From: a virus
DNA: 21,190 nucleotides
Direction: 5' to 3' (one strand)
Virus record (IMG/VR): IMGVR_UViG_3300034050_000162
Span: 1-21,190 of that record
Both the position numbers and the translations under genes were made by a program. The notes under the pieces are model-generated. The model made no database searches. It was not told where the DNA came from and was given only the letters and a program-made list of their open reading frames with translations. Shown piece after piece: positions 16,075 to 21,188 of the stretch (position 1 is its first letter; the number at the start of each line of letters is the position of its first letter).

Positions 16075-16542
16075 TTATAGGCCGTAATGAGTTGCTACCT
16101 CTTGAGGGGTTGTTTTACGAACACCCTTACGAGTAAGCCACATTTCGGCTGCCTCCTTCGTAACAATGTTATATCCTTTGCTAACCGTTCCTACCGAAAC
16201 CCAATTCATATTCTTTTCAGAATAAAGGGCAATCTTCTCACTAGAATCTTTTTTTTCTGATGAAACATCTTTTTTATTACTAAAAGTATTTGCTGATCCC
16301 ACAATAACTACATTATTTTCGTTTTGTCTTGAATTAGACATAGGGATTCTTTTTCTCACTACAGTCTTTTCAGATCCAATAACTTGATTGTCTTCTGCCT
16401 GTTCAACAACAGAAATCTTTGCATTTGTATTTAACAATACTGACAAGATAGAACTTTTTGTTTTTGCTTGAGAAATATCGATATAATTCTCTTCAGCATA
16501 TTCTTTAAGCTGAGCAACAGTCATTTTTTCAAAGTTTGACAT
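16075..16542 (-). CDS. Small protein with SAP/Rho-N-like N-terminus, after the capsid gene
   Basis: The protein has 155 residues in three zones. Residues 1-37 (MTVAQLKEYAEENYIDIS..KSSILSVLL) have the two-helix L-K-x-Y-A/G-I-D...K-x-x-L pattern of SAP/HeH/Rho-N modules. Residues about 38-103 are Ser/Lys/Glu/Asn-rich and probably disordered. Residues about 104-155 form a compact C-terminal part (NWVSVGTVSKGYNIVTKEAA then EMWLTRKGVRKTTPQEVA). Genes at this place in actinophages are often annotated as head-tail connector or hypothetical. It opens the connector operon with its own promoter and a strong AAAGGAAGG ribosome-binding site eight bases before ATG 16542. A role in capsid or neck assembly is likely from position, but the biochemical function is unknown. 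Confidence 0.6.
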   Translation of the reverse strand: MSNFEKMTVAQLKEYAEENYIDISQAKTKSSILSVLLNTNAKISVVEQAEDNQVIGSEKTVVRKRIPMSNSRQNENNVVIVGSANTFSNKKDVSSEKKDSSEKIALYSEKNMNWVSVGTVSKGYNIVTKEAAEMWLTRKGVRKTTPQEVATHYGL

Positions 16543-17805: not shown

Positions 17806-18399
17806 TTATGCGAATAGGTCGGACTTTGTGAGGAAACGTCCACCCCATAGTGATTTGTTCTGAGTCTTTTCAAATAGAAAGGACTCCTGCACGACCTCTC
17901 CAAGGTCGCCAGACTTGCGAAAAGCGGTGTCTTTTTCTACTGCATCCACACGCTTTCCAAACTCATTCTTTACAGAATCAACATCTTGTTTAACACCCGA
18001 TACGGTCTTGTTGAGTTCTTCTACTTTCTCGTTAAGAGCCTTAATGGTGTCAGCAAGCATGTTCATTGTAGAATTCATTTGATTGGCGACTGATTTTGTT
18101 GCCTCAATGCTTTCAGCATACGCTTTAGCTAGATCCTCATCATCAGACTTCTTCATGTCGCCCTTCATTTCTTCGGAATCATCTTCCTCTTCTTCGTCAT
18201 CTGCTTCTTCGTCTTCCATCTTTTCAGTTGTTTCGGTATCTTCTGCCTTCTCAACTTCTTCTGACTTCAACTCTTCTGCAGCATCTTCTTTAACTGACTT
18301 CTCCACAACTTCTTCTACAGCGGCTTCTACTGTTTCTTCAGTAAGAACTTCTGCAACTTCTGTTGCTTCGTCAGAATTTTTGATTACTTCATTTTCCAT
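17806..18399 (-). CDS. Nested scaffold protein from an internal start (197 aa)
   Basis: Inside the protease gene, in the same frame, ATG 18399 (residue 246 of the long protein) is preceded by AAAGGAGGT at 18415-18407, eight bases from GGAGG to ATG. This is the best ribosome-binding site in the window, whereas the long protein itself has none. The product would be the scaffold part alone: a Glu/Val/Ala-rich N-terminus, a very acidic middle (EEADDEEEEDDSEE), a coiled coil (ALNEKVEELNKTVSGVKQDV) and a C-terminus ending KSLWGGRFLTKSDLFA that may bind capsid protein. The arrangement matches lambda C/Nu3, where scaffold is made from an internal start in the protease gene. The site is seen directly; use of the start is inferred. 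Confidence 0.7.
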   Translation of the reverse strand: MENEVIKNSDEATEVAEVLTEETVEAAVEEVVEKSVKEDAAEELKSEEVEKAEDTETTEKMEDEEADDEEEEDDSEEMKGDMKKSDDEDLAKAYAESIEATKSVANQMNSTMNMLADTIKALNEKVEELNKTVSGVKQDVDSVKNEFGKRVDAVEKDTAFRKSGDLGEVVQESFLFEKTQNKSLWGGRFLTKSDLFA

Positions 18400-19134
18400 T
18401 TTGCTTACCTCCTTTGCATCATTTTTGATAGTAGAAAGAATAGACTTTACTACTTCTGACTTTTGTGCGTCATTAGTTTCAACAAAACCAATGTTCTCCA
18501 TATTCTTATCGCATCTAGGACAGTCTGATGAACTATCAGAAGATAGTTGAACTGTATCGTCCTCTTTACACCAGAATACGCTTTCAATGAGGGCTTTTGC
18601 AAGATATCCTCCTGCATGTCCCTTTTCAACACTAATGACATTTGCATATTGATTAGCAGGATTATCAACAAGGGAAAGTTCAAACAAGTCGTATTCTTTA
18701 ATAATTCTAATTGACTTATCCATTTCCTTGTTGTATACATCTTCGTAATCTTTTACATTGCCACCGATTGAAAATCCTGTGAGTGTTTTATCAAGAACCT
18801 TTTCCCAAGTATCTTGAGCACCCTTACTTACATATGCAGAAACATAAATTCCCTTATACAATTCTCCAGTTGTCTGATCGTAGAATGAGTCTTCTTTAAA
18901 AGATACTAGCTTTCCTACTGCCTTTTTGTCATCATGCATTTCTCGAATGTTTCCACGGAAGCCCTCAAAAGCTTTTATGCTTGCTTCTGAAGGAACAACG
19001 TCATTCTGCCTGTCGATGTTATCCAAAGTAGCGAATCCTGACACGATTCTTCTTTCAATGTCAACCTTAGCTATAGGCATTGATAGCCTTAAGCTGTTTC
19101 CTTCTGATTCCCAATGAGCTTTAGAAATTTCCAT
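17806..19134 (-). CDS. Prohead protease fused to scaffold (XkdF / peptidase S78_2-like, 442 aa)
   Basis: Residues about 15-170 form the protease. LSMPIAKVDIERRIVSGFAT is followed by DRQNDVVPSEAS, then REMHDD with likely catalytic His67 and FSIGG with likely catalytic Ser122; FELSLVDNPAN (150-160) supplies the usual third motif. This matches the XkdF-type family that trims scaffold and capsid protein. Residues 186-215 hold Cys189, Cys205 and Cys208 in a small zinc-ribbon-like stretch. Residues about 246-442 are an acidic, coiled-coil scaffold, also made separately from an internal start. ATG 19134 has no ribosome-binding site and lies ten bases after an extended -10 box, so the mRNA is probably almost leaderless; ATG 19080 (residue 19, with AAGG upstream) is the alternative start. 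Confidence 0.88.
   Translation of the reverse strand: MEISKAHWESEGNSLRLSMPIAKVDIERRIVSGFATLDNIDRQNDVVPSEASIKAFEGFRGNIREMHDDKKAVGKLVSFKEDSFYDQTTGELYKGIYVSAYVSKGAQDTWEKVLDKTLTGFSIGGNVKDYEDVYNKEMDKSIRIIKEYDLFELSLVDNPANQYANVISVEKGHAGGYLAKALIESVFWCKEDDTVQLSSDSSSDCPRCDKNMENIGFVETNDAQKSEVVKSILSTIKNDAKEVSKMENEVIKNSDEATEVAEVLTEETVEAAVEEVVEKSVKEDAAEELKSEEVEKAEDTETTEKMEDEEADDEEEEDDSEEMKGDMKKSDDEDLAKAYAESIEATKSVANQMNSTMNMLADTIKALNEKVEELNKTVSGVKQDVDSVKNEFGKRVDAVEKDTAFRKSGDLGEVVQESFLFEKTQNKSLWGGRFLTKSDLFA
18407..18415 (-). promoter_or_regulatory. Perfect internal ribosome-binding site for the scaffold
   Basis: AAAGGAGGT is complementary to the 16S rRNA 3' end and lies eight bases before the in-frame ATG 18399. 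It encodes the codons for Lys-Glu-Val within the long protein, so coding and signal overlap. Confidence 0.75.
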
Positions 19135-19144
19135 ATTAGTTACT

Positions 19145-19153
19145 ATTATACCA
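19145..19153 (-). promoter_or_regulatory. Extended -10 promoter of the protease/scaffold-capsid unit (near-leaderless)
   Basis: TGGTATAAT on the minus strand, TATAAT at 19150-19145. Only ten bases separate it from ATG 19134, so a start six or seven bases downstream would leave a leader of about three or four bases. No ribosome-binding site is present. Confidence 0.6.
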
Positions 19154-19170: not shown

Positions 19171-20805
19171 TTATGAAGTACGTCTTCCTTCGCCAGCAGG
19201 GTTTCTTCCAGTGGTTGTAGCAACACTATCAGATGCATTATTTGCTCTTTCTGTGTCTCTTTGTCTGTTCCCTGCAAGATCTGCACGGGCATCAGTTGCC
19301 TGTCTTGGAGTCATTTCAAAAACTTCATCTCCATCTGGACGATGAGGCATTCCAAGTTGTTCTCTCGCTTCGTTTGGAGTGATAACTTGAGTCTTGAGAT
19401 ATCTTTCCAGAATCTGAGATTGAGAAACTTCATCAGTAAGAGTAAGTTCCTTAAACTTAAGACTAACCAAATCTGTTTTTGTTCTTACAACCTTATTAAT
19501 CATTTTTTCAATATATCGTTGTGCTGGTCTTGTTACTTGTTCCTTAAAAGTTCTATCTTGAGACAATGCTGCTGCAAGACCTCCTGCATCTACACCGCCC
19601 AACTTTGAAAGAGGAACCTGATGTGCCATCAAAATGTTGTCACGATTTTTTTGATGATATTTATCAAAAGAAGCTTCTTGAACATTTGCTTCAATCGGAA
19701 CCATTGTAAATTCAATCTTGTTTCCATCTTGATCCGCAGGAAGTGGGACGTACAGAGTTCTATGATTCTGTCCCTTAAGACCTGTTTGCAAGAATCTAAA
19801 CAATCTATCCTCTGACTCACTATCAAGCTTTGCTCCCTTTACAACAACAATGTATCTTGGAACTGCCTTATTTTCAAAGTAGTCAATATTAAATTGAGCA
19901 GCAAGCTGATCTCCCTTCAAAGAAAGATAAGCAGAAAGAATATCGGGTACGCCATAAAAAGTATTCAAAGGGGAATATGCCTTTAGGTGGATAACTTCGT
20001 TTGGTCTTGGATCTTCAGTAATTGGATTTGGATTAGTTCCCCCAAAGTTACGGAAATAAACTACTTGTCCACTGACTATTTGTGTAAACCCATCTCTAAT
20101 CCTTCTGACCCTCATGGTTGTTGCAGGAATGTGTCCAAAATATCCCACTTCACCCGTAACGGTTCTTCCTACTTCTATGTAGGCATTTCCTGTTGATTCA
20201 AGATCTAAGTTTACTTTTTCCATCGTTGTAAGAAAACTGTCATCGCTGTTTAGGCTTTCTATCCACTCAATAGCCTCACCCTTGATTCTCTCAAGTCTTT
20301 TCCTGGCTTTATCCATGGCACTTTGATTTTCCATGTTTTCCATACGAATAACTACGTCTGGGGCAGTCTCAAACCTATATCCAAGACCTACCGTGTTGGC
20401 TACCTTTGCATCAATAGCAGCATGGTTAGCAAAGTTTGTATCATAAAAGCTTGCCAATTCATAAAGATTGTAAGGAGGGGTGATGACATCAAAAACACCA
20501 TATCCATTTCGATATGCTTCTCCAGGATTTATTTGTTTTGTTTTAACTCCATCAATTCCTGTTGAACGTACCCCCGCAGTATCTGCGTATGTTCCCACTA
20601 CTTGACCCATTTGATTTGTGGGTATATTAGAAATAGACTTTTCCATTTTATTTTCTGCTCTTGTGGTTCTACGTCTAAAGTTTAGATTTATTCCACTAAG
20701 ATCTTTTAGGTCTTCCCAAGACTTATTAAATGGATCTTGATTAATAAATTCATTTTCTTCATTGTATTCATTTGAATACCTAATGGCTATCTCTTGTCTT
20801 TCCAT
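19171..20805 (-). CDS. Portal protein
   Basis: The protein has 544 residues, the normal size for a portal. The early part contains NPGEAYRNGYGVFDVITPPY and YELASFYDTNFANHAAID followed by VGLGYRFE, typical of PBSX/SPP1-like portals. Then come GNAYIEVGR, the wing and stem region with VIHLKAYSPLNTFYGVPD and LSAYLSLKGDQLAAQFNIDYF, and the clip/crown helices with KVVRTKTDLVSLKF. The C-terminus is Arg/Asp/Asn-rich and probably disordered. The dodecamer forms the DNA channel at one capsid vertex and docks terminase. ATG 20805 overlaps the previous stop (TAATG), and GGGAG lies nine bases upstream. It precedes the protease gene, as in most siphophages. Confidence 0.93.
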   Translation of the reverse strand: MERQEIAIRYSNEYNEENEFINQDPFNKSWEDLKDLSGINLNFRRRTTRAENKMEKSISNIPTNQMGQVVGTYADTAGVRSTGIDGVKTKQINPGEAYRNGYGVFDVITPPYNLYELASFYDTNFANHAAIDAKVANTVGLGYRFETAPDVVIRMENMENQSAMDKARKRLERIKGEAIEWIESLNSDDSFLTTMEKVNLDLESTGNAYIEVGRTVTGEVGYFGHIPATTMRVRRIRDGFTQIVSGQVVYFRNFGGTNPNPITEDPRPNEVIHLKAYSPLNTFYGVPDILSAYLSLKGDQLAAQFNIDYFENKAVPRYIVVVKGAKLDSESEDRLFRFLQTGLKGQNHRTLYVPLPADQDGNKIEFTMVPIEANVQEASFDKYHQKNRDNILMAHQVPLSKLGGVDAGGLAAALSQDRTFKEQVTRPAQRYIEKMINKVVRTKTDLVSLKFKELTLTDEVSQSQILERYLKTQVITPNEAREQLGMPHRPDGDEVFEMTPRQATDARADLAGNRQRDTERANNASDSVATTTGRNPAGEGRRTS

Positions 20806-21173: not shown

Positions 21174-21179
21174 GGTTGA

Positions 21180-21188
21180 ATTATAGCA
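21180..21188 (-). promoter_or_regulatory. Extended -10 promoter giving a leaderless start
   Basis: TGCTATAAT on the minus strand, TATAAT at 21185-21180, with six bases (TCAACC) before ATG 21173. Transcription would begin at or next to the A of the start codon. The -35 region lies outside the window. Confidence 0.6.

Follow-up and report, generated by a model that had tools for sequence, protein, structure and literature searches.

The window analysed here, the whole 21,190-nucleotide stretch of the viral record IMGVR_UViG_3300034050_000162, carries on its minus strand a head module with a portal gene, a gene for a 442-residue head maturation protease and the gene for an HK97-like major capsid protein (MCP) (Table 1). 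Within the 3' part of the protease gene, and in the same frame, lies an open reading frame (ORF) with its own Shine-Dalgarno (SD) sequence and a start at Met246, and we consider it very likely that this part of the gene is a nested gene for a capsid scaffold. The case is made by the sequence, by its conservation, by the position of the start at a domain border and by the lack of any annotated scaffold gene beside the capsid gene; the existence of the nested product, its role as a scaffold and its stoichiometry are what we infer. A preliminary description of this DNA had placed the SD, AAAGGAGGT, eight bases before an in-frame ATG at 18399 encoding Met246, and had predicted a 197-residue product beginning MENEVIKNSDE; the coordinates and the letters are correct, and the translation agrees.

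Table 1. Features of the head module and predicted layout of the protease-scaffold fusion
Feature	Position	Strand	Remarks
Portal protein	19171..20805	-	PF04860 E 8.5e-26; directly upstream of protease gene
Extended -10 promoter element (predicted), TGGTATAAT	19145..19153	-	about 9-10 nt before protease ATG; top site of consensus scan
Head maturation protease-scaffold fusion (predicted), 442 aa	17806..19134	-	PF04586 33.7 bits (cut-off 21); PHROG 9427 E 4e-121
Metal-ribbon-like residues C189-x2-D192...C205-x2-C208	18511..18570	-	before nested start
Shine-Dalgarno of nested gene	18407..18415	-	GGAGG 18412-18408, 8 nt to ATG
Nested in-frame ORF (candidate scaffold), 197 aa, from Met246	17806..18399	-	ATG 18399-18397
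Major capsid protein, HK97-like, 380 aa	16631..17773	-	PF05065 33.7 bits
Fusion layout, first part	residues		S78-type protease, possibly XkdF-like, ~15-160; metal-ribbon-like module 183-219; helix 225-247 (AlphaFold2 models)
Fusion layout, second part	residues		acidic disordered linker 248-331; long helix 332-408; conserved C-terminal tail (SLWGGRFLTKSDLF)

Ranked by anti-SD energy, the nested start (-13.2 kcal/mol, the lowest value) comes first among the 277 internal in-frame ATG, GTG and TTG codons in the window. Only two gene starts surpass it, that of the capsid protein (-15.2, from a strong SD of its own with GGAGG at 17787-17783) and one other (-13.5); at the protease's own start the value is only -2.9. 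As computed, the nested product would have a mass of 22.0 kDa, a pI of 4.2 and a content of 30% Asp plus Glu.

Conservation extends this observation well beyond the window. A first search returned 41 loci, and those that cover the site show AAAGGAGGTAAGCAA(A/G)-ATG, with the exception of one distant locus, L040. Because one pattern of that search overlapped the nested start, a second search used protease-part patterns only, AFxxFRGNxR and VSxGAxD, with a diverse alignment and with both patterns lying within the protease part. The preliminary description had proposed that homologues be examined for the ribosome-binding site and the Met, and the signal proved to be kept: an SD with ATG or GTG stands at the border in 82 of the 83 sequences scanned (the window, viral loci and two genome-contig loci), and again in 14 Streptomyces and three Rhodococcus phages. 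The remaining sequence, L071, is a frameshifted copy; at L071:3001-3760 the homologous protease is frameshifted after 145 codons, in reality or through a sequencing error, and the nested SD and ATG (AAGGAGGAAAATCCT-ATG) are intact. Dereplication at 90% identity left 47 IMG/VR homologues, every one of them with GGAGG, at a spacing of 8 nucleotides in 46 and of 5 in one, and with a nested start codon that is ATG in 45 and GTG in two. K241 and E242 are codon-invariant across the 47 (AAG and GAG, respectively); at most of the other conserved Lys and Glu positions the codons are mixed. In L098, L125 and L134, which have a longer linker, SD and start have shifted together, and no out-of-frame gene after the nested SD is conserved in the homologue set. 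Judged from the sequences, the conservation of the nested SD and start is far beyond chance.

The same signal is found in annotated phages. By tblastn, the protease matches 127 Streptomyces and 9 Rhodococcus phage records, and all 17 phages inspected (14 Streptomyces phages from nine Stanwilliamsviridae genera and the three Rhodococcus phages) have an SD and an in-frame start at the same border. In the Streptomyces phages the site takes the form GAAGGAGGTGTAATC-GTG, (A)AGGGAGGTGCAGAACAA-ATG/GTG or a close variant; Rhodococcus phages Trina and Weasels2 have GGAGGTCAGTCAAAT-ATG and GGAGGTCAACCCAAT-ATG, and NiceHouse keeps AAAGGAGATTTCCCACAA-ATG despite loss of the ribbon module. Across these phages the nested start codon varies between ATG and GTG, that is, between Met and Val, and the SD, read as Lys-Glu-Val in the window group, is read mostly as Glu/Lys-Gly-Gly (EGG type, in some cases GGG) in the Streptomyces phages, Trina and Weasels2. 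Since the frame of the SD differs between the clades and the start residue varies, it is the nucleotide signal, and not the peptide, that is conserved and selected; in our view this frame switch is the strongest argument against an amino-acid constraint. Gene order in the relatives is portal-(small protein)-protease-MCP, and the corresponding gene is annotated as a capsid or head maturation protease. The records read list neither the nested gene nor any scaffold gene between those for the portal and the capsid protein, and the expectation that gene callers miss such starts is borne out by every annotated relative among them. We found no paper on a nested gene in Stanwilliamsviridae in the open-access literature, most subscription journals lying outside that coverage, and the novelty of the nested gene rests on this literature and on the annotations of the examined records.

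The nested start also coincides with a change in the predicted structure. An AlphaFold2 model, run on a 27-sequence alignment, shows an ordered protease at about residues 20-160 (predicted local distance difference test, pLDDT, mostly 70-90), strands at 183-219, a helix at 225-247, a fall below pLDDT 40 from about residue 248 to about 330, and then a single long helix. Order reaches to about residue 247, so that Met246 lies at the end of the structured part, at the border between protease and scaffold where the preliminary description had put it. The mean pLDDT is 58.6, and the overall arrangement of the model is therefore not reliable. In the scaffold part, the best-conserved pieces are the helix end and the last residues (SLWGGRFL..DLF), an end that would fit a capsid-binding tail such as that of herpes scaffolds, whose C-termini bind the capsid protein (PMC12474303).

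The protease itself belongs with the S78 peptidases. The Peptidase S78 profile PF04586 matches above its curated cut-off, PF14550 (XkdF, Peptidase_S78_2) reaches 27.9 bits against a cut-off of 24 in a six-frame search and is not listed by hmmscan, and the homologue in phage Faust scores 23.9 bits with PF14550, just under the cut-off. Foldseek matched the trimmed AlphaFold2 model to the T4 capsid assembly protease gp21 (5jbl, E 1.9e-5) and to many predicted prohead proteases, one of them named XkdF. As for an S49/ClpP-type protease domain, Pfam gives no S49 match. A sequence search of the PDB returned generic coiled coils only. What had been called the zinc part of the protease stands for some lineages and not for others: the ribbon Cys are all-or-none, with three (CDCC/CHCC) in 21 of the 47 lineages and zero in 26, and a zinc part as a general feature is rejected on that account.

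Initiation at the protease start would follow a different mode. There is no SD, and the extended -10 element is the best promoter-like site in the window's head region, where promoter-like matches are no commoner than in shuffled sequence. All 40 dereplicated homologues with upstream sequence have TATAAT at -14 to -16 relative to the protease ATG, 29 of them with the TG extension; TANNNT stands at exactly -12 in all 14 Streptomyces phages (6 nucleotides upstream of the start) and at -15/-16 in the Rhodococcus phages. The published signature of leaderless genes, which are common in Actinobacteria, is the lack of an SD together with TANNNT some 12 nucleotides ahead of the start codon (PMC3160421). 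The 14 Streptomyces phages carry this sequence signature, and the box at -14 to -16 makes the window group "near-leaderless". We believe that the protease-scaffold fusion is probably translated from a leaderless or near-leaderless mRNA, with a start predicted to be weak. Translational coupling is possible in several Streptomyces phages, whose protease start overlaps the stop of the preceding gene. Alicyclobacillus phage MMB025 has a similar nested site, yet its protease start is SD-led. The protease start annotated for Rhodococcus phage Trina falls inside the TATAAT box (L053:2980-2992), and homology together with promoter position suggests that the true start is Met5. A scan of the window's head region found no terminator-like site between the protease, nested and capsid genes.

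Some further observations concern other parts of the window. The gene at 21173-20805 (minus strand, 122 aa) is another candidate leaderless gene, with a TATAAT that ends 6 nucleotides before the ATG (stretch 21174-21185), and TG-N-TATAAT boxes also stand upstream of three further genes, with starts at 16542, 12619 and 11849. Gene 16542-16075 contains a strong internal SD-start pair at 16157 on the minus strand (GAAGGAGGCAGCCGAA-ATG, codon 134 of 155, -12.2 kcal/mol), probably a product of chance. A plus-strand ORF at 18083-18550 runs opposite the acidic coding stretch, in antisense, and is probably no more than its mirror.

Could the nested signal be something else? Taken by itself, the window would allow that SD and Met coincide by chance or through codon bias: when the protein was held fixed and its synonymous codons were shuffled, GGAGG arose at the nested site in about 14% of the shuffles, so the single-sequence observation is weak and proves nothing alone, and the window contains other internal SD-like sites. 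What leaves this explanation with practically no probability is conservation in diverged homologues, with GGAGG in 47 of 47, invariant codons at K241 and E242, and an SD in a different frame in the sister clade, which together refute it as far as sequence allows. Pausing is often invoked for SD-like sequences inside genes, and a border between a structured and a disordered part is a plausible place for a ribosome to pause. On this account the SD-like stretch would mark a translational pause, or simply conserved amino acids, the latter helped by the frequency with which the given protein yields GGAGG under shuffling, and only proteolysis of the fusion would release the scaffold. A pause, however, needs no start codon, and yet ATG or GTG is present in all intact IMG/VR homologues, 8 nucleotides from the SD in 46 of 47; the start alternates between Met and Val, and the residues read from the SD differ (KEV versus EGG). 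We therefore regard both forms of this explanation as highly improbable. It is also unlikely, in our estimation, that the nested protein is made and is not strictly a scaffold, serving for example as a protease inhibitor or dimerisation partner, or as an internal head protein. Its function is deduced from position, acidity, helix and the lack of another candidate, which leaves room for such roles, but the gene order leaves no further candidate for a scaffold between portal and MCP, the PF05065 match in the capsid protein begins only at residue 76 and is preceded by a Gly/Ala/Pro-rich stretch with no evident helical delta domain, and the succession of linker, helix and conserved tail is laid out as in known scaffolds.

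Beside the shuffling result, several observations weigh against a nested scaffold gene. In L040, at about 40% identity, GGAGG lies 13 nucleotides from the ATG, a suboptimal spacer, and the SD of NiceHouse is weaker, with only AAAGGAGA and an energy of -9.0. The homologues share ancestry, so that 47 of them do not amount to 47 independent events. The AlphaFold2 model of the whole protein has no significant match in the PDB. Finally, a comparable nested start was not seen in distant S78 fusions (Ktedonobacterales/Chloroflexi metagenome-assembled genomes, and L041); such fusions can therefore work without one, and the trait is clade-specific and not general to S78 fusions. The fusions in the metagenome-assembled genomes (L138-L143) have a conserved terminal LEALAGRLRDPQAQ-AVA-EMIRLQQ tail and no clear nested start.

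The preliminary description likened the arrangement to that of lambda C and Nu3, genes that overlap according to Shaw and Murialdo (1980), as cited in PMC8508860. As a working comparison of arrangements this is apt, since in both cases the protease gene would encode the scaffold in its 3' part, in frame and beside the portal and capsid genes. It does not extend to the enzyme: lambda C belongs to peptidase family S49 (PMC10695390), whereas the window's protease is of the S78 type, possibly XkdF-like, with a T4 gp21-like fold, a ribbon module and a predicted leaderless parent start. The window's protease is thus not a homologue of lambda C. Another likeness is found in the herpesvirus pair UL26/UL26.5, where the protease is likewise N-terminal and the scaffold C-terminal, and where the second gene begins inside the first and is identical to its C-terminal part. 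UL26.5 has its own transcript, whereas the window's scaffold would begin at an internal SD of what is presumably the same mRNA. HK97-type proteases are placed in one fold clan with those of herpesviruses; no herpes protease is among the listed Foldseek hits, which include T4 gp21. In HK97, with gp4, and in the T5-like Vibrio phage pVp-1, an S78-type protease adjoins the capsid gene as it does here, but HK97 pairs gp4 with a delta domain in the capsid protein, while in the window the putative scaffold is fused to the protease. The "capsid maturation protease" of Stanwilliamsviridae (Faust, Wofford, NootNoot and others; PHROG 9427) is a direct homologue, with the same gene order and the same nested SD and start; it differs in being annotated as a protease only, in the frame of its SD and in a start that is often GTG. 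On the features tested, a start at the border with a ribosome-binding site that is conserved in homologues, the window appears to match the arrangement of a scaffold nested in a protease gene.

Given a nested scaffold gene, a general pathway can be proposed. Scaffold is needed in large numbers and protease in few, and a strong internal SD combined with a weak parent start would supply that. The parent ORF would start on a leaderless or near-leaderless mRNA from its own extended -10 promoter, yielding the full-length protease-ribbon-scaffold protein in smaller amounts; the scaffold would be initiated from the internal SD on the same mRNA; and the capsid gene, next on that mRNA, would be translated from its own SD. 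The ratio would thus be set by the contrast between weak leaderless and strong SD-led initiation. The scaffold-only product would then co-assemble with the full-length protein and the capsid protein, probably docking via the conserved C-terminal tail, each procapsid would thereby receive many scaffolds and few proteases, and the protease would afterwards clear the scaffold. We would put at roughly even chances the full proposal: that one mRNA gives two head proteins by two initiation modes that set the enzyme-to-scaffold ratio; that the arrangement goes back to an ancestor shared by Stanwilliamsviridae, related Rhodococcus phages and a large group of environmental phages; and that it parallels herpes UL26/UL26.5 with a protease of the T4/HK97 type.

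A nested scaffold gene of this kind would mean that a head-assembly gene is probably unannotated across a whole phage family and in many environmental phages. It would also extend the protease-nested scaffold, known from lambda with its S49 enzyme and from herpesviruses, to the S78-type phage protease, and laboratory phages are now at hand in which control of the scaffold-to-protease ratio by internal initiation may be tested. If the leaderless prediction is true, these phages would offer a naturally occurring example of a protein ratio set by a leaderless and an SD-led start on a single mRNA.
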